A DNA stretch of 64,000 bases from Hornefia porci (GTDB lineage Bacteria; Bacillota; Clostridia; Peptostreptococcales; Anaerovoracaceae): positions 1,178,001 to 1,242,000 of the forward strand of contig NZ_MJIE01000001.1 of NCBI RefSeq assembly GCF_001940235.1. Reading direction: 5' to 3'. The stretch's first letter is position 1. Every line of letters starts with the position of its first letter. The position numbers were made by a program, and so were the translations under genes. Shown here piece by piece: positions 8,969 to 61,802 of the stretch. The notes under the pieces are model-generated. The model did no database searches. It was not told the origin of the DNA and saw nothing but the letters and a program-made list of their open reading frames with translations.

Positions 8969-9009
8969 GCTCTATTATGTTAGTATCCGGAAAAAGAGGG
9001 GGCGTTATC

Positions 9010-10230
9010 TTGAAAAGCAGAGATTACGTATTACTGAAAAGTCTATATTACGACCACAAAGAAGAATACGAAGCATTGTATGACAGCCGGTTTAATTCTG
9101 ATGAATGCGTTCATCTGAACTTCACAGTCGCGGGTAACCCCGCTTTCTTTATGGAAACACCTGCATTGATAAAAAAGGTTGTAGAGATTTCCAGGCTTGA
9201 TAAAGATATTTTCCGGCTGTCGCGCGATCTTCCCGGAATTGCTTTGAAGCAGTATATAAACAAATGTCTGATTGATGAAATCGTTATTACCAATAACATC
9301 GAAGGCGTCCACAGTACGAGGAAGGAAATCAGCGAAATACTTGATGATCTTGAAGGTAAAAGTGACAAAAGATTTTTCGGCCTGGTTAACAAATACAACG
9401 CATTGATATCTGGAAATCATTTGTCAATAAAAGACAGTCATGATATCCGGGCTTTGTATGACGAGATGTTCCTTCCTGAGATCATTGAGGAAAATCCAAA
9501 AGACGAGCCTGATGGGAAGATCTTCAGAAAAGAGCATATCGACATCGTGGATCCGACACAAAAAGTAATTCATCACGGATTATACCCGGAGAATAAAATT
9601 ATCGAAAGCATGAATGATGCCGTCGACATTTTAAACGATACAGGTATCGACCCCTTATTCAGGATATCAATATTCCACTATCTGTTCGGGTATATTCATC
9701 CGTTCTATAACGGCAACGGACGTCTGAACAGATTCATCAGCAGCTATTATCTTGCAAATACGCTTGAATCAATTATGGGGTATCGCCTCTCATATACAAT
9801 CAAAGAAAACATCAGCAGGTATTACAGGAGTTTTAAGCTCGTGAACGAAGAAATTAACAGGGGCGACATAACGCCGTTCATCTTCACGTATCTGGAGTTT
9901 ATTAAAGAGTCTGCCGTAAATCTGCGGGACAGTCTGACCGACAAGAACCGGCACTTAAAAGTATTTACCGGACAGCTTGTGAACCTGCCGCACGGTGATG
10001 AGGAAAAGTACGGTTATCTATACTTCCTTTTATTGCAGGCTTCACTGTTTTCCGAAATCGGCATCACAACAAAAGAACTGCTGCAATGCCTGCAAATCAG
10101 CCGACCAACTCTGCAGAAACGTTTAAGCGAGATTGATAAGAGCTGCAATCTGCTTATTACCGAAAAACGCGACTCAAATAAGTTCTACCGGCTTAATCTC
10201 GAGGTTTTTGCAGAGATGACGAAAAAATAA
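9010..10230 (+). CDS. Fic-domain protein (class II inhibitory motif)
   Basis: A Fic enzyme that would transfer AMP or another nucleotide moiety to protein side chains. The motif is HPFYNGNGRLNR (near residue 235), where the usual Asp/Glu that holds magnesium is Asn. The motif TNNIEG, fitting (S/T)xxxE(G/N), lies N-terminal, marking class II self-inhibition by an internal helix. The C-terminal winged-helix-like part (TTKELLQCLQISRPTLQKRL) suggests DNA binding or self-control. The start is taken as TTG 9010, with AGAGGGGG before it; an ATG at 8977 would sit at the predicted transcript start. The gene is lower in GC than its neighbours, a hint of transfer. Confidence 0.85.
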   Translation: MKSRDYVLLKSLYYDHKEEYEALYDSRFNSDECVHLNFTVAGNPAFFMETPALIKKVVEISRLDKDIFRLSRDLPGIALKQYINKCLIDEIVITNNIEGVHSTRKEISEILDDLEGKSDKRFFGLVNKYNALISGNHLSIKDSHDIRALYDEMFLPEIIEENPKDEPDGKIFRKEHIDIVDPTQKVIHHGLYPENKIIESMNDAVDILNDTGIDPLFRISIFHYLFGYIHPFYNGNGRLNRFISSYYLANTLESIMGYRLSYTIKENISRYYRSFKLVNEEINRGDITPFIFTYLEFIKESAVNLRDSLTDKNRHLKVFTGQLVNLPHGDEEKYGYLYFLLLQASLFSEIGITTKELLQCLQISRPTLQKRLSEIDKSCNLLITEKRDSNKFYRLNLEVFAEMTKK

Positions 10231-12235: not shown

Positions 12236-13033
12236 CTACCCATACAGCTCTTTTCGTCTCAGCATCGTATACGGCCTTCTGCTCCGTTCCCGTTTCGACG
12301 CTTTCATATCGATGTCCGCATATACGATCTGTTCGCTGTCATCTGCTTTCACAACGCAGTTTCCACGGGCATCCGCCACCATGGATTCTCCGGCGAAATC
12401 CATCTCTCCTTCTTTCCCGACGCGGTTGCACATTGCAATTGCCACACTGCTCTGGAACGCCTGAATTCTGATTTCCCATTCAAAGATTTCCAGAGGCTCG
12501 CTCTTTGTATTCACCGTCGGAACCAGGATAAGATCCGCTCCCATGAGACTTTCGGTCCGGATGCTTTCAGGGTAGTGCCGGTCAAAGCACACCACAATCC
12601 CAATACGGCCATGCTCTGTATCAAACACCTGAAACCCCGTATCGGACGGTGTATAATAATCCTTCTCATAAAACTGTTCTGCCTGTGCCACATGAACCAT
12701 TTTCTGAACGCCGACAATCTCTCCGTTTCTGTCGATCAGAATACTTGCATCGTAATACTTTTCATTCTCCATCAGATAGATATTGGGCACTGCGGCGATC
12801 CCGCCTTCCCGGCAGGCAGTGCGAATACTGTTCACGGTCTCTGAGTCAAGCTCAAGCCCATACGAGGTCGCGTCTCCGCCCGGATATTGCGGGAAAAATT
12901 CCGTAAGCTGCACCTCCGGGAACAAAATCAAATCCGCTCCTTCCCGTGCCGCCGTTCTGATTGCGTCAATACTTTTCTTCAGATTTCTCTCTACAGTTCC
13001 CGCATTGCTCATCTGTACCATTGCAAGTTTCAT
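12236..13033 (-). CDS. Carbon-nitrogen hydrolase (nitrilase superfamily amidase)
   Basis: An amidase of the N-carbamoylputrescine amidase/omega-amidase branch, 265 residues. The Glu-Lys-Cys triad is visible in FPEVQLTEFF, GVQKMVHVAQ and VVCFDRHYPES. The start at 13033 has GGGAGGAA 8 bases before it and gives the family's usual N-terminus MKLAMVQM. The acidic FYEKDYYTP stretch is common to polyamine-pathway members, so N-carbamoylputrescine is one candidate substrate. It stands alone between the sirtuin operon and the nitroreductase gene. Confidence 0.88.
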   Translation of the reverse strand: MKLAMVQMSNAGTVERNLKKSIDAIRTAAREGADLILFPEVQLTEFFPQYPGGDATSYGLELDSETVNSIRTACREGGIAAVPNIYLMENEKYYDASILIDRNGEIVGVQKMVHVAQAEQFYEKDYYTPSDTGFQVFDTEHGRIGIVVCFDRHYPESIRTESLMGADLILVPTVNTKSEPLEIFEWEIRIQAFQSSVAIAMCNRVGKEGEMDFAGESMVADARGNCVVKADDSEQIVYADIDMKASKRERSRRPYTMLRRKELYG

Positions 13034-13154
13034 GGATTTTTCCTCCCTGCTGTCTGTGTTTAAAGACATTATCCAAGTTATCAATAGGCCAGTTGACTTT
13101 TAAATTCCATCGGATTTCGTCAGCAGAAGCCGGATTTTCTGCTGGACGAAACGC

Positions 13155-14066
13155 TCATCTGACAAGGAGAGACAGAGTCCTCCTGATGTCGCCGTCAATG
13201 CAAATGGACTTTTCCCGTATTTCTTCCGGAGCATAAGCCTCGCCGCGGTTCAGGCAGGCATAGATCGCATACGGCCATTGCGCGGTCATCCTCCAGAAGG
13301 GGAATTTGATTATGCCGGGTGTGTTCATGCCGACTGCGCATTCCAGGAAGAGCACCTTCCCGTTCTCATGTTCTCTCAGGAATTCCGAATAGCGCTCCGC
13401 CGCCCTGTACCACCCTTTGTCCTCCACAAAGTTGTCATCCGCGCGCAGGTTAGTCGTCATCGGCTCTCCGTCATCCGGGCAGTATGGAATCAGCTCTGTC
13501 GGAATCCTCATGGCAAGCTCTGCGGTTTCGGGAACGAGCAGCTCGTTATCCTCCGCAATCTCATACCCCTGGGCAAGCACCATCTTCCGGATGATTTCTT
13601 TGTTCTCGTAGGTCTTATGCGCCGAAGCGCCGTGCGGATCGGAACTCTGCAGCAAACCATAGTCCCCCTGTGTATAGAAGAGCCGTTCCCTGTCAAAGCC
13701 GGTTCTCTGAAAGCAATGATCCACATTGGTGGTCAGAACAAAGTAATCCTTGTCCTTCACCAACTCCAGCAGCATATCATAGGTGTCGCTGGGAATCGGT
13801 GCATAACGGTTGATCCAGATATATCTGCTCCAGAACGACCAGAAGGTCTCCTTATCAGGATACGGATAAAAACCGCCGGAATACATGTCGCTGAAGTGGT
13901 ACTTTGCGGCGAAGTCACCAAAGTATTTGTCGAAACGCTCTCCGGTATAAACATATCCGGCAGATACGGAAAGGCCTGCACCCGCACCGATAATCACCGC
14001 ATCCGCGCTGTCAGTTTCTCTTCTCAGCGCCCTGATTTGGTCCGAGTAATTTTCTGTATATTTCAT
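13155..14066 (-). CDS. Class M sirtuin (SirTM-type protein ADP-ribosyltransferase)
   Basis: An NAD-using sirtuin of the class found beside macrodomains, 303 residues. The Rossmann motif IGAGAGLSVSAGY and the TTNVDHCF segment with the conserved Asn are present. Where deacylating sirtuins have HG, this reads FYTQGDYG: Gln for the catalytic His, as in SirTM enzymes that ADP-ribosylate protein. The Cys knuckle is nearly gone (one Cys remains in IPYCPDDGEPM), so zinc binding is doubtful. The ATG at 14066 has AGGATGAGG before it and lies 56 bases inside the macrodomain gene, showing translational coupling. The lipoylated GcvH-like target and LplA2 ligase of the known staphylococcal and streptococcal operons are not nearby, so the target is unknown. 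Confidence 0.88.
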   Translation of the reverse strand: MKYTENYSDQIRALRRETDSADAVIIGAGAGLSVSAGYVYTGERFDKYFGDFAAKYHFSDMYSGGFYPYPDKETFWSFWSRYIWINRYAPIPSDTYDMLLELVKDKDYFVLTTNVDHCFQRTGFDRERLFYTQGDYGLLQSSDPHGASAHKTYENKEIIRKMVLAQGYEIAEDNELLVPETAELAMRIPTELIPYCPDDGEPMTTNLRADDNFVEDKGWYRAAERYSEFLREHENGKVLFLECAVGMNTPGIIKFPFWRMTAQWPYAIYACLNRGEAYAPEEIREKSICIDGDIRRTLSLLVR

Positions 14067-14811
14067 AATCCTCATCCTTAAAAACATTGAACACGACTTT
14101 AATCGCGCCGCCTTTTTCTTCCCTGTATTTCCGGACTGTTCTCACCGCGATTTCCGCCGCCCGACGCTGCGGAAATCCGAAGACGCCTGTGGAAATACAG
14201 CAGAAGGCAATGCTCCTGAATCCGTTTTCCTCTGCCGCGCGCAGACACGACTCATAACAGGACGCCAGAAGCCGCTCGTCTTCTTTTGTCAGCGCTCCCC
14301 GAACGATGGGCCCCACCGTATGGATCACAGCCCTGCACGGCAGGTTATAACCGGGCGTGACTTTCGCCTGCCCTGTCGGCTCTGCATGTCCCTGCTCGTC
14401 CATTATCTTGCCGCAGATGTACCGGAGCTGCACGCCTGCGAAGGTGTGAATACAGTTATCGATACAATTATGGAGCGGCTGATAGCATCCAGTCATTCCG
14501 CTGTTGGCAGCGTTTACGATGGCGTCCACACGAAGTCTGGTGATGTCTCCCTGCCAGAGGAAAATATTTTCGCCGCAATCCTCCCACTCGTCCCCGGAAA
14601 CCACGCCGCGAAGGCGAAGCTCCTCACCGAGATAGTCATCCTGAATCCTCAGAAACTCCGGGGATGCCGGTCCCGGCATGCGCACATTCATCAAGGCGCG
14701 AAGCAGATCCCTCTGCTCCCCGTCGGTTCCGGGGATCTCCAGTCCCCGACAGTTTTTGTTTTCCTTAAGCAAATACTTAATCAGATATTCTCTCTCCTGC
14801 TGATGATTCAT
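14011..14811 (-). CDS. SirTM-linked zinc-type macrodomain (ADP-ribosyl hydrolase)
   Basis: Removes ADP-ribose added by the partner sirtuin, by family analogy. The protein has 266 residues; the macrodomain begins about residue 85 (IFLWQGDITRLRVDAIVNAA). The stretch GCYQPLHNCIDNCIHTFAG matches the Cys/His zinc site of SirTM-associated macrodomains. STGVFGFP near residue 212 is the phosphate loop. The start overlaps the Rrf2 gene by 35 bases and the end overlaps the sirtuin start by 56, so all three form one operon. Confidence 0.92.
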   Translation of the reverse strand: MNHQQEREYLIKYLLKENKNCRGLEIPGTDGEQRDLLRALMNVRMPGPASPEFLRIQDDYLGEELRLRGVVSGDEWEDCGENIFLWQGDITRLRVDAIVNAANSGMTGCYQPLHNCIDNCIHTFAGVQLRYICGKIMDEQGHAEPTGQAKVTPGYNLPCRAVIHTVGPIVRGALTKEDERLLASCYESCLRAAEENGFRSIAFCCISTGVFGFPQRRAAEIAVRTVRKYREEKGGAIKVVFNVFKDEDYEIYRKLLGPNQGAEKRN

Positions 14812-15256
14812 CCTTATTCTCCCTGTCGATCACTTCCCGGATCTCCGACACCACGTCCGCCATCGTCATTTTTTTCAGTTCGTTTTCCATAGTCTGCTGC
14901 ACAGCCGCCAGTCTCGCATCCATCACCTTATGAATATTCCTTCCGACCGGGCACGCGGCGTTCGGCTGCTCATGAAAATGAAACAGTCCCTCCTCTTCAT
15001 CGACGCTCCCAACCGCCCGGTAGAGGTCATACAGAGTAATCTCCTCCAGCGGTCTCGCCAGCGTGGCGCCGCTGCTCCCCCGCCTTGTATTCACAATTCC
15101 CGCCCGACGCAGCTGCGACAGAACATTCCGGACGATCACCGGATTGACGCCTATGCTGCCTGCCAGAAACTCGCTGTTGACCCGGTCCATATCCCTGAAA
15201 TAATCCAGCGCCGTAATGGTGTGCACCGCGATTGTAAACTTGCTTGTAATCTGCAT
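14777..15256 (-). CDS. Rrf2-family regulator
   Basis: A winged-helix repressor of 159 residues. The second ATG (15256) is chosen: GGGAGG directly abuts the first ATG but is 6 bases from this one. Rrf2 features are the N-terminal FTIAVHTITALDYF, the recognition part NPVIVRNVLSQLRRAGIV and the wing TRRGSSGATLARP. One Cys (AACPVGRN) sits where cluster-binding members have three, so sensing by a single thiol as in YwnA/CymR relatives is more likely than an Fe-S cluster. First gene of the macrodomain-sirtuin operon, which it probably controls. Confidence 0.9.
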   Translation of the reverse strand: MQITSKFTIAVHTITALDYFRDMDRVNSEFLAGSIGVNPVIVRNVLSQLRRAGIVNTRRGSSGATLARPLEEITLYDLYRAVGSVDEEEGLFHFHEQPNAACPVGRNIHKVMDARLAAVQQTMENELKKMTMADVVSEIREVIDRENKDESSAGERISD

Positions 15257-15292
15257 CTGCATCCTCCCTGTTGTCATTCTTGTGATAGTTGC

Positions 15293-15321
15293 AATATATC
15301 ACTTTACACAAAAACAGTCAA
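15293..15321 (-). promoter_or_regulatory. Promoter of the Rrf2-macrodomain-sirtuin operon
   Basis: On the minus strand: TTGACT (15316-15321), a 17 bp spacer, and TATATT (15293-15298). TTGCAACTAT directly after the start of the -10 matches TTGTAACTAT at the next promoter upstream (15582-15610), a possible shared operator for the Rrf2 protein. Confidence 0.75.
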
Positions 15322-15451
15322 ACCGGTTCTGCGCCGCCGTCCGGTTTTCCGATCTTACAACCGCGGTCACATCAAATCCTTTTTTTACCGCTTCTTCAGT
15401 GATGAGTCTTCCTTCTTTTCCGTTTGCTGCCACTACTGCGATCTTCTTCAT
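15299..15451 (-). pseudogene. N-terminal remnant of a NAD(P)-binding reductase (YwnB-like)
   Basis: A 50-codon frame with a strong ribosome site (GGAGGAAAAAACA before ATG) reads MKKIAVVAANGKEGRLITEE and then FDVTAVVRSEN, the dinucleotide-binding start of NmrA/YwnB-type proteins. It stops after 50 residues, where about 160 more are expected. The stop lies within the Rrf2 promoter. In Bacillus, ywnB neighbours the Rrf2 gene ywnA, so this is probably the old partner of the regulator, lost by deletion. Confidence 0.65.
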
Positions 15452-15581: not shown

Positions 15582-15610
15582 AATATAGCACGGCTCAGTT
15601 GTAATGTCAA
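15582..15610 (-). promoter_or_regulatory. Consensus promoter upstream of the YwnB-like remnant
   Basis: Minus strand: TTGACA (15605-15610), 17 bp, TATATT (15582-15587). An inverted repeat TTGTAA-N9-TTACAA overlaps the -35, in a form similar to the sequence at the Rrf2 promoter. Likely an Rrf2 operator. Confidence 0.7.
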
Positions 15611-15666
15611 TAGTTACAATTATTTTTTTACAAAAAAAATCCGGCGCCGGTTTTGGCGTCGGTTTT

Positions 15667-16260
15667 TCAAATCTCAAGCGCTTTCATAAACCCCTTTACA
15701 TTACCGGTCTGCATGAACCCGCTCATCAGACATGCGCCGGAAGCTCCTGCGGCCCTGACCTCCGCAATATTTTCCGGACCGATACCTCCGATTGCATATA
15801 CCGGTATACCGGACACATCACATACACTCCTGAGAAAATCGATTCCACGGGGTTCAAGTCCCTTCTTACAATCAGTCTCGAACACGTGACCTGCCGTAAT
15901 GTAAGTGCAGCCGAGCATCTCCGCTTCAAGCGCATCTTCGACTGAATGACAGGACGCTCCCAGAATGCCAAACGCAAGTCTGTCACTCTCAGCCATCTCA
16001 CGAAGCCCCGGGAGCGGCATATGCAGAGCGTCTGCTCCGAGTCGCCTTGCGACTTCAGGGTAACTGTGCAGAACAGGCTTTGTTCCATGAGCTTCACACA
16101 CCTTTATAAACTCGCGTGCGAGATCCTCATATTCAATTTTCTCAAGCTCCTTCTCGCGAAGAATGATCGCCTTTGGACGGGCATCCCCTATCTGTCCTAT
16201 TTTCTCCAGGAAGTCACCTCTGCAGAGGGAGCGGTTCGTCACACACAATATATCAGACAT
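15667..16260 (-). CDS. thiE: Thiamine-phosphate synthase family protein
   Basis: Joins the pyrimidine and thiazole halves of thiamine, or acts as the related TenI. About 197 residues forming a TIM barrel. MSDILCVTNRSLC is the usual start; the ATG at 16258-16260 overlaps the thiH stop by 8 bases. Family segments include HMPLPGLREM and YAIGGIGPENI, with MSGFMQ at the end. Last gene of the thiSFGHE cluster. TenI-type aromatizing isomerase cannot be excluded because ThiE and TenI are close. Confidence 0.82.
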   Translation of the reverse strand: MSDILCVTNRSLCRGDFLEKIGQIGDARPKAIILREKELEKIEYEDLAREFIKVCEAHGTKPVLHSYPEVARRLGADALHMPLPGLREMAESDRLAFGILGASCHSVEDALEAEMLGCTYITAGHVFETDCKKGLEPRGIDFLRSVCDVSGIPVYAIGGIGPENIAEVRAAGASGACLMSGFMQTGNVKGFMKALEI

Positions 16261-17506
16261 AAATGTAATCATTCAGGACCGGCTGCAGTCCTTCATCAGA
16301 CAAATCAGCATACATGCTGTCAAAGCTTCTCGCATCTGCGATCTCGAACTGCTCATCGCCTTCACTCTCTTCACTGCAGGTTCCCGTGTACTTGCTCTCG
16401 TGATCACCTATCCCCGTAGAAACACCCGCAGAGACCTTTGTACATGCTATCTTCGTTATACCATTCCTGAATCCTGCATTCTCACGGGATGATACTACGA
16501 TTTGTGCAAACGGCAGAAATATCCTGTATGCACATATGATCTGACAGAGCTGCTTTTCATGCACATCGAGAGGACTGATCTTCTCGTTATTCACTATCGG
16601 CCTCAGCCTCGGACATGATATCGACATTTCCGCATAAGGATATTTTCTCTGGATATGGTATACGTGCATCCCGGTCGCAAACGCATCCTTTCTGAAATCG
16701 GCAAGCCCGAGAAGAGCTGAAAAGCCAACGCCTCTCATGCCTCCCATAAGAGCCCTCTCCTGGGCCTCGAATCTGTAAGGCCATACGCGCTTATGGCCGA
16801 GCAGATGGAGCTTTTCGTACTTATCCGTATCGTAGGTTTCCTGAAATACCGTTATATAATCCGCTCCGCACTCATGCAGATATTTATACTCTTTCACATT
16901 GACCGGATATATTTCCAATCCGACGTTCCTGAAATATTTTCTCGCAAGTCTGCAGGCATCGCCTATATATTCGACAGGACTCTCGGAGCTGCTCTCTCCT
17001 GTCAGTATCAGTATCTCTTCGATCCCCGAATCGGCGATCACTTTCATTTCGTGTTCAATCTGACTGTGATCCAGTTTAAGTCTCCTGATATTGTTATAGC
17101 AGTTAAACCCGCAGTAGATGCAGTAATTACTGCAATAATTCGCGATGTACAGCGGTGTGAAAATGTATACAGTGTTGCCGAAGTGTCTGCCCGTCTCTAT
17201 CTGCGCTTTATGCGCCATCTGCTCAAGGAATGGTTCTGCCGCCGGTGACAGGAGCGCTTTGAAATCCTCAATTCCGCACTTATCCCGTCGGAGTGCCGTC
17301 ATGACATCTCTTGCCGTGTATTTATCATAATCGTAATTTTTCATCTCAAACAGAACCGCTTCTCTTATACCGGGATCTATCCGGTCCATATCCTCCATGT
17401 ATTCCATGTGGTCAGTTCTGGAGGAAGGATCGTTTTCCAGCCGGTGTTTCCTGGCAAGCGCCTGCTCAGACAAATTTCCGGTATCCATAAGGAATTCATT
17501 TTCCAT
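16253..17506 (-). CDS. thiH: 2-iminoacetate synthase
   Basis: A radical-SAM enzyme that splits tyrosine to dehydroglycine for the thiazole ring of thiamine; an anaerobe's alternative to ThiO. The protein has 417 residues. The cluster motif is in YIANYCSNYCIYCGFNC (CxxxCxxC). ILILTGESSSESP and MEYMEDMDRID are also family-like. It follows thiG with a 15 bp gap and overlaps thiE. Expression should follow the upstream TPP riboswitch. Confidence 0.95.
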   Translation of the reverse strand: MENEFLMDTGNLSEQALARKHRLENDPSSRTDHMEYMEDMDRIDPGIREAVLFEMKNYDYDKYTARDVMTALRRDKCGIEDFKALLSPAAEPFLEQMAHKAQIETGRHFGNTVYIFTPLYIANYCSNYCIYCGFNCYNNIRRLKLDHSQIEHEMKVIADSGIEEILILTGESSSESPVEYIGDACRLARKYFRNVGLEIYPVNVKEYKYLHECGADYITVFQETYDTDKYEKLHLLGHKRVWPYRFEAQERALMGGMRGVGFSALLGLADFRKDAFATGMHVYHIQRKYPYAEMSISCPRLRPIVNNEKISPLDVHEKQLCQIICAYRIFLPFAQIVVSSRENAGFRNGITKIACTKVSAGVSTGIGDHESKYTGTCSEESEGDEQFEIADARSFDSMYADLSDEGLQPVLNDYIYV

Positions 17507-17521
17507 TATATCTTTCGCCTC

Positions 17522-18292
17522 CTAATCACGCAGAAATCCCGTGAGCGGATCTGATGCCTGCGCCCCTCTCGTAAGCACCCTTCCGAGACCGGCAATATAT
17601 GCTTTGCGGCCCGCTTCTATCGCAAGCTTGAACGCGCCGGCCATCGCCGGGAGATCTCCCGCCGTAGCCAGAGCAGTATTTGCCATTATTGCGTCAGCGC
17701 CCATTTCCATCGCCTCGCATGCCTGCGACGGTCTGCCTATCCCGGCGTCTACAATGACAGGAACATCGATCTCATCGATCAGTATCTGAATAAACTCTTT
17801 TGTCGCCAGGCCCTTGTTTGAACCTATAGGACTTGCAAGAGGCATCACTGTCGCCGCACCGGCATTCACCATATCCCGCGCATCGTTAAGATCGGGAAAC
17901 ATATACGGCATTACTACAAAACCTTCATTCGCAAGGACTTCGGTTGCCTTTACAGTTTCTTTATTATCCGGCAGCAGATACTTGCTGTCTCTCATTATTT
18001 CGATCTTGACAAAATCACCGCACCCGAGCTCGCGCGCAAGCCTCGCAATACGCACCGCCTCATCGGCATCCCTCGCTCCGGACGTATTCGGAAGAAGCGT
18101 CACCCCTTCAGGGATGTGATCAAGGATGTTTTCCTCTTTTTTTGTATTGGCTCGCCTTACCGCGACAGTTATTATCTGTGCACCGGCATCCCTGACCGCC
18201 GCATTTATAAGATCCATGGAATATTTCCCGGATCCCAGAATGAAACGTGAATCGAATTCATGTCCCTGTATCACTAATTTGTCTTTGTTCAT
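17522..18292 (-). CDS. thiG: Thiazole synthase
   Basis: Builds thiazole phosphate from deoxyxylulose phosphate, dehydroglycine and ThiS thiocarboxylate. 256 residues, the usual length. Typical segments: FILGSGKY at the start, AVRRAN with the expected Arg, [15 protein letters not shown], and [11 protein letters not shown] with MANTALA near the C-terminus. Third gene of the thi operon, 26 bp after thiF. Confidence 0.96.
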
Positions 18293-18318
18293 AATATGTC
18301 TCCCTCTTCAGCCGGATC

Positions 18319-18954
18319 CTATGCTTCATACTCTCCCGCAATAATACGGAGTGCTACGGTCGCCTCATGTGCCGCACATGTCATGACACGCGCAGAAAAC
18401 AGGCTTCCAAGTTCTGCGACATCGCTGACGCCATCGCCGCAAAGATAAAACCTCTTTCCGATCCTCTGCGTCCTGATGTCATTCGCAGATCCGAGCCCGG
18501 CCATGCCCGCTGCCGCTATAAAGTATTTATCCGGATACCTCGTCAAAACTTCTTCGGTCAGCATTGCCTTCTGCTCCGGAGCATCGAACGCTTCGATAAT
18601 AATATCCTCATCATCAAACAGGCCATCTATATTCTCAGGGCTTATCATCATCCGATCCGCCTTTATGTCACAGTAAGGCGCCGCCGCTTTCAGGTTCTTT
18701 GTCATCGCTTCTGCCTTGGACATTCCGATCTGATCCGCAGCATACTGCTGCCTGTTCAGATTCGAGATGTCCACACTGTCGAAGTCTATGATATGCAGAT
18801 GTCCAATCCCGGCTCTTGCAAGGCACAGACACACATTGCTCCCCAATCCGCCAAGACCGCAGACTGCTACCGATGCCGCACAGAATTTTTTCTGGAGCTC
18901 TGTTCCATGTCTGGCCGCAAGCGCCGTTTCCATTTCCTCTCTTGAAGGCACCAT
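18319..18954 (-). CDS. thiF: ThiS adenylyltransferase
   Basis: An E1-like enzyme that adenylates the ThiS C-terminus. 211 residues, shorter than E. coli ThiF and like Clostridial forms. The ATP loop is CGLGGLGSNVCLCLARAG, followed by DFDSVDISNLNRQQY (Asp/Arg ATP contacts). No CxxC zinc pairs are seen, as in several short ThiF proteins. Starts one base after the thiS stop. Confidence 0.93.
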   Translation of the reverse strand: MVPSREEMETALAARHGTELQKKFCAASVAVCGLGGLGSNVCLCLARAGIGHLHIIDFDSVDISNLNRQQYAADQIGMSKAEAMTKNLKAAAPYCDIKADRMMISPENIDGLFDDEDIIIEAFDAPEQKAMLTEEVLTRYPDKYFIAAAGMAGLGSANDIRTQRIGKRFYLCGDGVSDVAELGSLFSARVMTCAAHEATVALRIIAGEYEA

Positions 18955-18955
18955 A

Positions 18956-19150
18956 TCAACCGCCTCCTACAAATCCCACAATTTCGATAACGTCACCGTC
19001 TTTGATGCGCGTGCACTCATACTCCGCTTTGGGGAGTACAGCCTGGTTAAGCTCAACTACTATACGGGATTTCTGATAACCTGCTGACTCTATATATTCC
19101 TCTACAGTCTTTCCTGCAGCGTCTGCATTTTTACCGTTTATCTTCACCAT
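18956..19150 (-). CDS. thiS: Sulfur carrier protein ThiS
   Basis: A 64-residue ubiquitin-like carrier. It starts MVKINGKNADAAGKTVEEYI and ends IEIVGFVGGG, with the terminal Gly-Gly needed for thiocarboxylate formation. First gene of the operon, directly after the riboswitch and its terminator. Confidence 0.96.
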   Translation of the reverse strand: MVKINGKNADAAGKTVEEYIESAGYQKSRIVVELNQAVLPKAEYECTRIKDGDVIEIVGFVGGG

Positions 19151-19177
19151 CTGTAATCACACCTCCTCCCTTCAACT

Positions 19178-19214
19178 GCAATAAAACAGGAGGCCGTTTC
19201 CGAACGCCTCCTGT
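19178..19214 (-). terminator. Intrinsic terminator under riboswitch control
   Basis: On the minus strand ACAGGAGGC (19206-19214) pairs with GCCTCCTGT (19186-19194), followed by TTTTATT. It lies between the TPP aptamer and thiS, so TPP binding probably favours it and stops transcription. Confidence 0.85.
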
Positions 19215-19229
19215 AAAGATCCTCTCTTT

Positions 19230-19315
19230 AAGACTCCCTACGGCGGCATTATCCGCATCAGGTAAAAGGGCCGAAGCCTGTGCTTCCTCTCAGCCCTCCA
19301 CGCGGGCTTCCCTGT
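19230..19315 (-). promoter_or_regulatory. TPP riboswitch (THI element)
   Basis: The minus strand carries the TPP aptamer landmarks in order: GGGCTGAGAGG, then CCCTTTTACCTGAT, then GGATAATGCCGCCGTAGGGA. It sits upstream of thiS with a terminator after it. It begins only a few bases past the stop of the decarboxylase gene. Confidence 0.96.
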
Positions 19316-19321
19316 CCTATT

Positions 19322-20404
19322 CTATATCAGTGTACACCCGCATGACATATTTATCAAGTTCGATATTTTCAAAAAAATCGACGCCGTTTCAGGCGTCACT
19401 TCCTCCGCCTGCGTCTCGTCGTTTAAAATCCGCAAGGAAACCTCATTTCCGCAGGTATACAGGGGCTCCATCCCCTGCTCCGGATACTTTCCGGCCGCGC
19501 TCTTCAGACACTGCGCTATCGCCGGTCTCGCAAACCCGTTCAGCCCGTTCCTGACGATCAGATACTTTGTTCCCCGGGACTCCTTGATATCCACAACCGG
19601 CGTATAATACCTTCCCGCGTTTCCGACGATAAATCTGCCCGTCTCGATATACAGCTCCGCGTTCAGGGTTTCCGCATTCCGTTTCCGGATTCCGTCAAAC
19701 GCCGCAGAGAGCCTGGACAGATCCACCTCCGCCTGGGAAGTCCGGTCATAAACCATCCCGATCCCGCTGCCGAAGTTCACGAAACGGATATCGATTCCGC
19801 GCAGCCCGCCGGCGCGAACCGCCAGTTCAAAGCATTGCCCGTAATATTGTTCCAGCTGTCCTGTGCTCAGCACCTGAGAGCGGACATGGACATGAACCCC
19901 CACAATTCTCAGATGTGTGAGCCTCTCCATTCCGGCGCTTACTGTCCCGAGCAGTTCCTCATCGACTCCGAACCCTGACGGCCGCAGTTCTTCCTCGAAG
20001 GCGGACATCGGATTTACTCTGATACCGACAGAAAGCACTTCATGGTGCTCCGCCGCCACAGTATTCAGAAGCTCCAGTTCATGCAGGCTGTCCGCGATAA
20101 AAACGCATTTCCCATATGCGTTCCGGATATCGCTCGCAGTCTTCCCGGGCGCAGAATAGAACACCGCATTTCTGCTCATTCCGGCCTCCTCCGCTCGAAG
20201 CACCTCACCGGAAGACGCCGCATCCGCGCCGAAGCCCTGCTTCCGCACCAGCCCTAGCAGAGGCCTGAAAGGATTCGTCTTGACCGAATACAGGAATTTC
20301 ACCTGTGGAATCGCCGTCGTCAGTCTGCTGCAGTTCCGGATTACCGGCGCTCTGTCATAGACATAACACGGCGCGTGCTTTTTCAGAAATTCAATGTTGT
20401 TCAT
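19322..20404 (-). CDS. PLP decarboxylase, fold type III (diaminopimelate/ornithine decarboxylase family)
   Basis: An alanine racemase-fold PLP enzyme of 360 residues. Start at 20404 with AAAGGAGC before it. CYVYDRAPV and the lysine in YSVKTNPF mark the PLP site; VGVHVHVRSQ, FVNFGSGIGM and ETGRFIVGNAG follow. It is about 50 residues short of typical diaminopimelate decarboxylases. After a T7 run near 19371 the other frame reads FFENIELDKYVMRVYTDIE, which looks more protein-like than the annotated end, so a frameshift or truncation at the 3' end beside the riboswitch is possible. Substrate not determined. Confidence 0.8.
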   Translation of the reverse strand: MNNIEFLKKHAPCYVYDRAPVIRNCSRLTTAIPQVKFLYSVKTNPFRPLLGLVRKQGFGADAASSGEVLRAEEAGMSRNAVFYSAPGKTASDIRNAYGKCVFIADSLHELELLNTVAAEHHEVLSVGIRVNPMSAFEEELRPSGFGVDEELLGTVSAGMERLTHLRIVGVHVHVRSQVLSTGQLEQYYGQCFELAVRAGGLRGIDIRFVNFGSGIGMVYDRTSQAEVDLSRLSAAFDGIRKRNAETLNAELYIETGRFIVGNAGRYYTPVVDIKESRGTKYLIVRNGLNGFARPAIAQCLKSAAGKYPEQGMEPLYTCGNEVSLRILNDETQAEEVTPETASIFLKISNLINMSCGCTLI

Positions 20405-35487: not shown

Positions 35488-35918
35488 CTCATCGCCCCCT
35501 TTCTCAAAATAGGTATCATAAAAGTTCTGATATTTATATTTTTAAGAAAGGCATCACCGGATGGCTGTCAGCTTTAGCCTCACGGGAATTTCACCCCTGC
35601 ATGGATCTCATCCAGCCCTACCCATTGCCTGCGACGCTTCTAACGCTCGGACTGTGGCTGTAGGGGAGTATCATTATGTATTTTGTGCTGTCATGGCTTG
35701 CAAGGTGCTACGCTTGCTTTACGGTAGAATATTTCTCGCTCAACTTCCGGATAGGGAAAGTGTCATGGCGTATTCTTCGCACAGCTAAGGCACAAAAGGA
35801 AAGTGTCCGGTTTGCCCTATGATACGCCGCCGTTATCTTGCGGGTATGTTTGTCAAAGAACAGGCGACAGCTTCTTTCTGCCTTGTCTGCGGAAAGGGGA
35901 ACGCAGGCAGTTACATTC
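35488..35918 (-). other. 431 bp conserved non-coding segment A
   Basis: No gene supported. It carries a chain of motifs, GTATCATT (35668), GTCATGGCG (35762) and GTTATCTTG (35832), that recurs in the same order at 48,596-48,785 in the second integrase module, also between a sigma-factor gene and the recombination genes. Confidence 0.45.
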
Positions 35919-48305: not shown

Positions 48306-49022
48306 AGCTTCCTCCATTTCTCTGAACACACATTCATGGGAAATACAAAATGAATCGCCTATGTATCATCCGGCGCAGGAAAATAATCCCTTCGTATACT
48401 TGACACGCCGAGCTCATTCACCTTGCCGGATTTTCTTCATAAAACGATCCATTTTGTCCACGACACCCCGGATCTCAGGAAACAATCAGGCGAAGGCAAG
48501 CTACCGCCTCCTCATGGGTCTCTAACCCCTCCGGTCCCCCGAAGCAATTCTCATTGCGTGATCCCGCATCCCTGCAGGGCTGTGACTAAATTGAAGTATC
48601 ATTGTCCTCCCCGGCGGTCATCGCACAATGACAGCCGCCTTGCTGTCTTTTGAAGTAAGACATTATCGCTCGCCTGATGGGTCATGGCGCATTACTTCGC
48701 ATGCTCACGGAGTTACCCGATATACCAGAGAGAAAGTACCTGATGAATGTGTATTCCGTTTTCAAAGTGCAGTTTGTTATCTTGAGCGGTCACCGGCTGT
48801 CATGATTTCTTTACGAAAGTCCTGCCCGATTTTGCCTCTCACCCTATAGACAAAAATGGGAGGAATTATAACGGTCTGAATCGAAATTTTTTCTGTTTTT
48901 CCCAATCCGAAGCATTTTAGGACAAAAAAAGCACCTTGCAGTTATTTGCAAAGTGCTGTGTAATGAATTGCCGCTACCCTGGTTGATTCTACTCAACCAG
49001 GGCAAAGAATTCGTCATTTTGA
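48306..49022 (-). other. 717 bp gap with conserved non-coding segment B
   Basis: No gene seen. Motifs GTATCATT (48596), GTCATGGCG (48681) and GTTATCTTG (48776) recur in the order and near the spacing of 35,668-35,840. Both copies sit between sigma gene and recombination genes of unlike integrative elements. A structured RNA or regulatory region is possible. Confidence 0.45.
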
Positions 49023-61084: not shown

Positions 61085-61802
61085 ATCGGGTAGGAGGCGG
61101 TCGTTAGACCGCCGACCTCTCACACCACCGTGCGTACCGTTCGGTACACGGCGGTTCAACCAACTTAACAAGTGACACACCTTGTGGCGTAGTAGTCTAA
61201 CATGGAGATTAGCCCGAAATCGGCTAATCTCTTGTTGCTTATTGCTATGTGTACATCTCCGCAATGAGCGGGCTTTGCATATCCATGCAGGTATGCAGTT
61301 TTCCACGCTGACCACACCGGTACGCCGAGTTTGATAAGGTTCTTTGCCGCCTTTGAAGTTATCGACAGGCGTATGCTCCGGCTACGAAGTGGAACGTACT
61401 TCAACTGATTGATTGTTCAGCCCTTCGCTCCATTCCCATTACAGGAACTTCTCCACTACTATGGCTTCTGCTGACTTCTCACAGTTCGTTGTTACTACGG
61501 CTAATGAGACCGCCTGTGAGACCTCCCCAGTTAAGGTGCGCACTCTTTCCCTCCATGTACCTGCCGAATTTACCCGTACTTCCAGCAATTTTTGGACTTC
61601 AGTGCCTTTTGCCACCTTATCCGTATTTCCGAGCCTTGTATGCGGTTCCTGTCCGTCAGGTCAGAGGTTTGCTTACAGCTTCTTTCAGATTCTGTCTCAC
61701 GGCGGACACCCTTGCTGTTCGGCTATGTGCTTCGTCGTTGCCTACGCGCACTCGGGACTTTCACCCGTTAGAGAACGCCCATGCTGGGCAAACAAAAAGC
61801 AC
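61085..61802 (-). mobile_element. Group II intron with most of its maturase deleted
   Basis: The minus strand starts GTGCTTTTTGTTTGCCCAGC, continues with domain I landmarks (GGGTGAAAGTCCCGAGTGCG, then GTAGGCAACGACGAAGCACA), and ends with domain V (GAACCGCCGTGTACCGAACG to CGCACGGTGGTG) and domain VI ending CTACCCGAT. In between, only the start and C-terminal end of a reverse transcriptase/maturase remain. Both ribozyme halves survive in 718 bp. Confidence 0.85.
61165..61404 (-). pseudogene. Group II intron maturase, C-terminal remnant
   Basis: 79 residues: KNLIKLGVPVWSAWKTAYLH, then HIAISNKRLADFGLISMLDY, the end of the DNA-binding domain of intron maturases. No reverse transcriptase motifs and no HNH endonuclease remain. 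Confidence 0.75.

Follow-up and report, generated by a model that had tools for sequence, protein, structure and literature searches.

Two bodies of work bear on the locus described here. Operons pairing a zinc macrodomain protein (Zn-Macro) with a class-M sirtuin (SirTM) occur in an extended form, which in Staphylococcus and Streptococcus also carries a GcvH-like protein (GcvH-L) and LplA2, and as independent Macro/SirTM operons, described in 2015 (Rack et al., PMC4518038). SirTM modifies lipoyl-GcvH-L, whereas canonical GcvH, tested from S. aureus and E. coli, is not modified (PMC4518038). It has been reported in Lachnospiraceae and others, and Enterococcus faecalis and Treponema pedis are given as carriers of a lone pair (PMC4518038; PMC11490716). 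In 2024 the Zn-Macro of a minimal operon was shown to be inactive on GcvH-L, and the targets of SirTM and Zn-Macro outside the GcvH-L operon were stated to be unknown (PMC11490716). Separately, SifR and YwnA are Rrf2 regulators of the monothiol kind that carry a CPV motif; the SifR cysteine senses quinone, and the SifR operator is TGTAA-N9-TTACA. In many genomes ywnA lies next to ywnB, which encodes an NAD(P)H quinone reductase (PMC9218516). In a 64,000-nucleotide stretch of the Hornefia porci genome (GCF_001940235.1, contig NZ_MJIE01000001.1, positions 1,178,001 to 1,242,000; here, the window), genes for an Rrf2 regulator, a Zn-macrodomain, and a SirTM overlap one another on the minus strand at 13155-15256. 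We read them, with a probability of roughly 0.6, as an electrophile-derepressed operon whose sirtuin would ADP-ribosylate a protein, likely not GcvH, that the macrodomain would then release.

The SirTM gene (13155..14066, minus strand) encodes 303 residues when translation begins at MKYTENY, or 7 more if it begins at an in-frame ATG at 14087. A Pfam search gave no match at E 0.01. A search of solved-structure sequences matched 5a3a, the S. pyogenes SirTM (SpySirTM), at 3.8e-55, and 5a3a was also the top PDB fold match (E 1.2e-25, TMq 0.81) of an AlphaFold2 model with a pLDDT of 85.7. QG replaces HG, so the catalytic His is a Gln, Q134 (numbering refers to the 304-residue translation of 13155-14069); it is invariant across 19 aligned rows, as are the active-site residues N115 and R209, and in our reading of the 5a3a alignment the three correspond to N118, Q137, and R192 of SpySirTM. 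The product thus belongs to the SirTM class, for which a protein ADP-ribosyltransferase role without deacylase activity is predicted.

The macrodomain gene (14011..14811, minus strand; 266 residues) matches PF01661 at 1.4e-38, with the Pfam domain beginning at residue 99 of 266 after an N-terminal extension, and exceeds the NCBIfam cut-off for NF003163, "protein-ADP-ribose hydrolase" (350.7 versus 272 bits). Its zinc loop, Cx4HxC, reads GCYQPLHNC, a pattern present in 129 of 131 distinct macrodomains of SirTM loci, and its NAAN motif lies within VNAANSG. The solved relatives are 8rsi, the best, and 5kiv. By these features it is a Zn-Macro, with a predicted zinc-dependent ADP-ribosyl hydrolase function. 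Two of the three residues of the SpyMacro patch facing GcvH-L (R172 and R183) are not kept, by our reading of an alignment in which 8rsm was taken as SpyMacro from its residue numbers.

The Rrf2 gene (14777..15256, minus strand) encodes 159 residues from the start MQITSK, or 7 more from an in-frame ATG at 15277, and matches PF02082 at 1.6e-29. Its one Cys lies in ACPVG. The fetched SirTM loci encode 32 distinct Rrf2 proteins, and that Cys column is invariant in all of them; 31 have CPxG, 9 have just one Cys, HxxPNxxC is found in 22, and HxxPNPxC in 11. The best solved relatives are 1ylf and 1xd7 (YwnA). In sequence, this regulator resembles the SifR/YwnA monothiol quinone sensors: the window shares with the described SifR/YwnA systems the single conserved Cys before PVG, the sequence TGTAA-N9-TTACA, and an adjacent ywnB-like gene. 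It differs in one change within HxxPNPxC and in carrying an ADP-ribosylation pair, whereas catechol and iron genes are described there (PMC9218516); the available text of that paper does not contain the words sirtuin, macrodomain, or ADP-ribos.

A truncated ywnB-like gene, for an NAD(P)H quinone reductase, precedes Rrf2 (15299..15451, minus strand). Before this remnant stands a sigma-70-like promoter, TTGACA-17-TATATT (15582..15610, minus strand; 11 of 12 consensus positions), whose -35 box is covered by a perfect palindrome, TTGTAA-N9-TTACAA (15599..15619), which contains the SifR operator. We read the palindrome from the window before comparing it with the SifR paper or with other promoters, and it is the only perfect match in the whole 2.81-Mb assembly. 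A second operator-like palindrome (15289..15309; 10 of 12 positions) lies over a promoter-like site before Rrf2, TTGACT-17-TATATT (15293..15321, minus strand; 10 of 12 consensus positions). Promoter-like sites in the region number five, compared to 3.0 expected from shuffles. For 30 Rrf2 genes linked to SirTM (41 hits above 60 bits, minus short second copies of the same loci, one gene truncated where its locus ends, and two that lie on the opposite strand), we scored the 300 bp upstream. Of these regions, 12 match at least 11 of the 12 operator positions, where shuffles predict 0.05, and 17 match at least 10, where shuffles predict 1.05; to these counts the window contributes only its nearer, weaker site (10/12). 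For HxlR genes (n = 77), the same thresholds were reached in 2 and 8 upstream regions. A wider regulon sought by operator search was rejected, since beyond the one perfect site the assembly holds seven sites with one mismatch, about chance level by our estimate.

The first-pass annotation of this DNA, made from its letters, had described an overlapping Rrf2, a zinc-type macrodomain, and a SirTM with Gln for the catalytic His, and had suggested that the single-Cys Rrf2 implies redox or thiol control. The description agrees with the coordinates, PF02082, PF01661, NF003163, 5a3a, and Q134, and the Cys count is correct for the window protein. Thiol-type control gains support from the invariant Cys, the likeness to SifR/YwnA, and the perfect SifR-type operator predicted in the promoter. 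Neither the truncated gene at 15299-15451 nor the operator-like site at 15599-15619 had been mentioned.

We propose that reduced Rrf2 would bind TGTAA-N9-TTACA and repress the operon, and that an electrophile (quinone) adduct on its Cys would release it from DNA, as for SifR (PMC9218516). By analogy with SpySirTM and SauSirTM (PMC4518038), SirTM would use NAD+ to place ADP-ribose on an acidic residue of its protein substrate, and the Zn-macrodomain would reverse the modification. Our committed guess for the target is a thiol- or flavin-bearing redox protein of the same response, encoded elsewhere, that would be inactive while ADP-ribosylated and freed by the macrodomain.

Several observations weigh against this electrophile-switch reading. 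The top NCBIfam match of the Rrf2 protein is HypR, under its cut-off (64 versus 180), and its HEQPNAAC departs from HxxPNPxC at one position. Thirteen of the 30 SirTM-linked Rrf2 genes have no site of at least 10/12, and the 30 include near-copies (window/L005, L043/L051, L270/L271, and L284/L285, where L and G numbers are our labels for loci and genomes), so the independent number is smaller. Genome-wide, 84 operator sites with at most two mismatches were found, compared to 124 for a reversed control, meaning that the pattern is not enriched, and we estimate that about 0.2 perfect sites would be expected by chance. The neighbor models used in the survey below derive from families found at the very loci surveyed, and neither Rrf2 nor HxlR was in range at 21 of 54 and 15 of 30 loci of our class samples. 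Loss of ywnB could mean a decaying operon. Finally, what the DNA itself shows is the order and families of the genes, their catalytic residues, the sequence of the operator, the absence of GcvH-L, and the truncation of ywnB; activity, expression, and target are predictions.

The genes around SirTM elsewhere speak to what the Rrf2 neighbor means. We compared DNA within 4 kb upstream of SirTM (275 kb) with more distant DNA (417 kb) at 80 loci, the best 80 of 575 and hence near relatives. Enriched near SirTM were Rrf2 (8 near, 0 far), HxlR (24/2), PNPOx-ferredoxin (24/0), nitroreductase (15/1), ywnB-like genes (7/0), and MDR (4/0); AKR (2/4), LysR (3/3), MATE (1/2), MarR (0/3), and FMN reductase (1/2) were not. 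Two wider samples gave 54 SirTM-positive genomes of 291 in the class of G103 and 29 of 296 in the class of G079. From these, 54 + 30 = 84 loci were examined; G222 and G602, with fragments only, were excluded, G573 contributes three loci and G213 two, and L190 and L192 are the same as L012 and L064 of the 80-locus set. HxlR was near SirTM at 29/54 and 5/30 of these loci, and Rrf2 at 4/54 and 10/30. The one HxlR protein searched, that of L054, matches YybR, YodB, and QsrR, among others, and 47 of 58 distinct HxlR proteins have an N-terminal CPV. In Clostridia and Bacilli, SirTM often adjoins SifR-type Rrf2 or HxlR-type thiol sensors together with flavin or NAD(P)H oxidoreductases. It is worth noting that the word Rrf2 is in neither main text on SirTM operons (PMC4518038, PMC11490716) and HxlR is not in that of 2015.

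In a quick LG+G4 tree of 98 SirTMs, without bootstrap and with rows L287, L229, and L288 dropped, the presence of an Rrf2 neighbor changed 16 times, at least 10 of these forced by well supported (starred) branches, counts in which gains and losses are not told apart. That a tie to thiol or electrophile sensors was gained or lost repeatedly argues that it matters. One might instead suppose that Rrf2 and ywnB respond to quinones on their own account and came to lie before Macro-SirTM by chance, their cotranscription having no functional meaning. We regard this as unlikely, given the forced changes on the tree, the confinement of Rrf2 to DNA near SirTM, and the similar distribution of the HxlR thiol sensors. 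A 17-residue insertion relative to SpySirTM, tried as a mark of SirTMs outside GcvH-L operons, was rejected: no more than 31 of 100 rows fitted the insertion pattern, and 9 rows not linked to GcvH-L share the short spacer of SpySirTM. Tandem or multiple diverged SirTM genes occur at L006, L007, L106, and L111, and in G015 there are six matches, some of them parts of one gene.

The first-pass annotation had also noted the lack of GcvH-L and LplA2 at this locus, and we find no GcvH or LplA gene beside Rrf2, the macrodomain, and SirTM, so that this is not an extended operon. Nor did we find elsewhere in the assembly (98.19% complete) a GcvH-L/LplA2 pair, whose presence under the same regulator would have spoken against the annotation. 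The assembly's sole GcvH lies in an ordinary glycine-cleavage operon, a canonical run of GcvT-GcvH-GcvPA-GcvPB-LplA-Lpd, and of its two LplA-type genes one is in this run and the other elsewhere. None of the operator matches listed lies within this run. A GcvH-L encoded away from the locus is accordingly rejected as the target. The absence is no anomaly: 83 of the 84 class-sample loci have no GcvH in the fetched DNA (0/54 and 1/30 have one), 3 of the 84 having less than 2 kb upstream of SirTM and 11 less than 1.5 kb downstream. The single GcvH-linked locus, in G560 (L256), is by our reading an extended operon, in which LplA and an OYE-like fragment accompany GcvH-L. GcvH detection works, because a separate Pfam search also found this GcvH-L adjoining SirTM. 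The G560 genome seems to read TGA as Trp. The idea that Rrf2 stands "in place of" GcvH-L and LplA2 likewise lacks support, the GcvH-free SirTM being the common form and the Rrf2 neighbor having come or gone many times.

Compared to the published forms, the window shares with the minimal operon an adjacent Zn-Macro and SirTM without GcvH-L or LplA2 (PMC4518038; PMC11490716), but here the macrodomain gene overlaps with that for Rrf2, and the operon is preceded by a predicted operator of SifR type. With the extended operon of Staphylococcus and Streptococcus it has in common Macro, SirTM, and a link to flavin oxidoreductases, which are OYE and LLM there and nitroreductase and PNPOx-ferredoxin in relatives of the window; it differs in its lack of GcvH-L and LplA2 and in a SirTM belonging to another clade. 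An ADP-ribosylation target other than GcvH-L, as the earlier annotation suggested, would fit the published work (PMC11490716, PMC4518038).

Could SirTM modify, in trans, the canonical GcvH that is encoded and presumably lipoylated with the glycine-cleavage genes, in staphylococcal fashion? The genome's one GcvH gene does share its run with an LplA gene. We nevertheless consider this quite unlikely. The canonical proteins of S. aureus and E. coli were not substrates in the published tests (PMC4518038), and the C-terminal stretch of canonical GcvH that holds the blocking helix appears, from a reading of the sequence, to be present in the Hornefia GcvH. On the tree, the two SirTMs linked to GcvH-L group apart from the rest (support 100), although one of these two rows is a long branch with odd composition. 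Among 50 SirTM genomes from the 80-locus set, 21 have a GcvH over the Pfam cut-off and 14 at E <1e-30, leaving 36 without a match at the latter level; many of these are incomplete metagenome assemblies, making absence weak evidence for any one genome.

The ywnB remnant raises a different doubt. It keeps residues 1-43, of which the assembly has no other copy, followed by an unrelated tail. In the closest relative, Hornefia butyriciproducens (L005), whose SirTM is 94% identical, an intact 210-residue gene for an NAD(P)-binding protein (PF13460) precedes Rrf2. In a BLASTN comparison of the two, 573 bp of L005 have no counterpart in the window and 16 bp match twice, implying that about 590 bp is missing from the window. 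The homologue of the lost gene at L054 matches 4r01, named SpYwnB in PMC9218516, at 248 bits, which identifies the lost gene as ywnB-like, and intact copies before Rrf2 at L075 and L223 indicate loss in the window and not gain in L005. The 16 bp at the junction (15327-15342) is common to both sides, as expected from recombination between short repeats. An assembly error at this junction is possible.

With most of ywnB deleted, and with SirTM matches that are fragments or contain stops in other genomes, the whole operon might be a relic on its way to loss. This, too, strikes us as rather improbable. The three overlapping frames remain open, with ratios of nonsynonymous to synonymous substitution (dN/dS) against L005 of 0.08 for Rrf2, 0.18 for the macrodomain, and 0.12 for SirTM; these are above those of three flanking genes (0.02-0.05) yet far below 1, and they span the entire time since the window and L005 split, including the time before the deletion. 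Both operator-like sites are kept as well. YwnB itself is unlikely to be the ADP-ribosylation target, given that it was cut while the other three genes stayed open at low dN/dS. That Macro-SirTM is an NAD-consuming antiphage or toxin-antitoxin module and not a stress switch seems very improbable, since its enriched neighbors are redox genes and thiol sensors (a weak point, as defense genes were not searched for), even though SirTM is patchy and sometimes multiple among relatives (18 of 61 genomes).

A candidate for the missing carrier appears in other Clostridia. At L069, in G103, SirTM ends a cluster encoding an ACGX-repeat peptide (TIGR04341, 59.3 bits; cut-off, 28), a radical-SAM protein (TIGR04340, 585.7 bits; cut-off, 400), a nitroreductase, and a PNPOx-ferredoxin. 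The radical-SAM protein is over its cut-off in 12 of the 291 class-sample genomes, all 12 of which have SirTM, compared to 42 among the remaining 279 genomes (Fisher p 5.6e-10, uncorrected for kinship). These 12 genomes have 13 such loci; SirTM lies within 5 kb on the same strand at 12, preceded by a macrodomain at 11, and the remaining locus is at a contig end. In a second sample, searched with the peptide, it was found in 24 of 392 genomes. The 24 loci fetched exclude that of G103, which is L069. SirTM lies downstream at 11 (one of them, L341, is L046 of the 80-locus set), is absent from at least 4 kb of downstream DNA at 7, and has too little DNA for a call at 6; that is, 11 of 18 informative loci. 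The link is thus strong and not obligatory, and the 7 SirTM-free loci weaken the peptide as an obligatory partner.

Clusters of this kind ending in SirTM are L069, L148-L157, L159, L283, and 11 of L339-L362; they usually hold a nitroreductase or PNPOx-ferredoxin and an HxlR regulator, with Macro mostly before SirTM. At L203, a short peptide gene without maturase beside PNPOx, Macro, and SirTM looks like decay toward the plain Macro-SirTM pair. The ACGX cluster would parallel the extended operon in having a carrier, a maturing enzyme, flavin enzymes, Macro, and SirTM. Given how frequently the module precedes Macro-SirTM, the cysteine-rich peptide may, in other Clostridia, stand in for lipoyl-GcvH-L and be ADP-ribosylated. 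The window differs from these systems, which often end in Macro-SirTM behind an HxlR-type regulator: its genome has no match at E 1e-30 to the L069 radical-SAM maturase, used as a protein query (TIGR04340 itself was not run), and the ACGX peptide was on that ground rejected as the target in Hornefia porci.

One can envision, tentatively and with more doubt than confidence, that SirTM and the Zn-macrodomain form a portable writer and eraser for small thiol carriers in electrophile-response clusters. The carrier would be lipoyl-GcvH-L in the staphylococcal case, the ACGX peptide in many Clostridia, and, for Hornefia, some thiol or flavin protein modified in trans; quinone-sensing repressors, SifR-type Rrf2 or HxlR, would be the trigger.

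The window carries a known enzyme pair of the usual lone kind; the novelty lies in the proposed trigger and in the broken first gene, ywnB. Among the literature matches listed, no paper combines SifR and SirTM, and only one, on S. aureus ClpX (PMC12710355), has the words Rrf2, sirtuin, and macrodomain together. ACGX stands as a whole word in 14 papers, and judged by their titles none of them concerns a peptide system. The operator and regulator provide a concrete candidate inducer, quinones, and the ACGX neighbor a concrete candidate substrate in relatives. If the electrophile-switch reading is right, bacterial ADP-ribosylation would join thiol and quinone stress control; if the peptide is a substrate, the ACGX system would gain a likely function.

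The surroundings of the operon can be described briefly. A carbon-nitrogen hydrolase gene (12236..13039, minus strand; PF00795) follows 115 bp downstream, in the same order as in L005; whether it belongs to the operon is unsure. The minus-strand genes downstream face a convergent plus-strand gene for a Fic/DOC-domain protein (8977-10230). Upstream, at 15667-19323, lie thiamine-synthesis-like genes (ThiE by Pfam; ThiH, ThiG, and ThiF by our reading), beside which a thiamine pyrophosphate riboswitch is found (19218-19323, minus strand). Farther away, the window contains two matches to the pemK RNA motif (35580-35677 and 48512-48605) and a group II intron RNA (61420-61706, minus strand).

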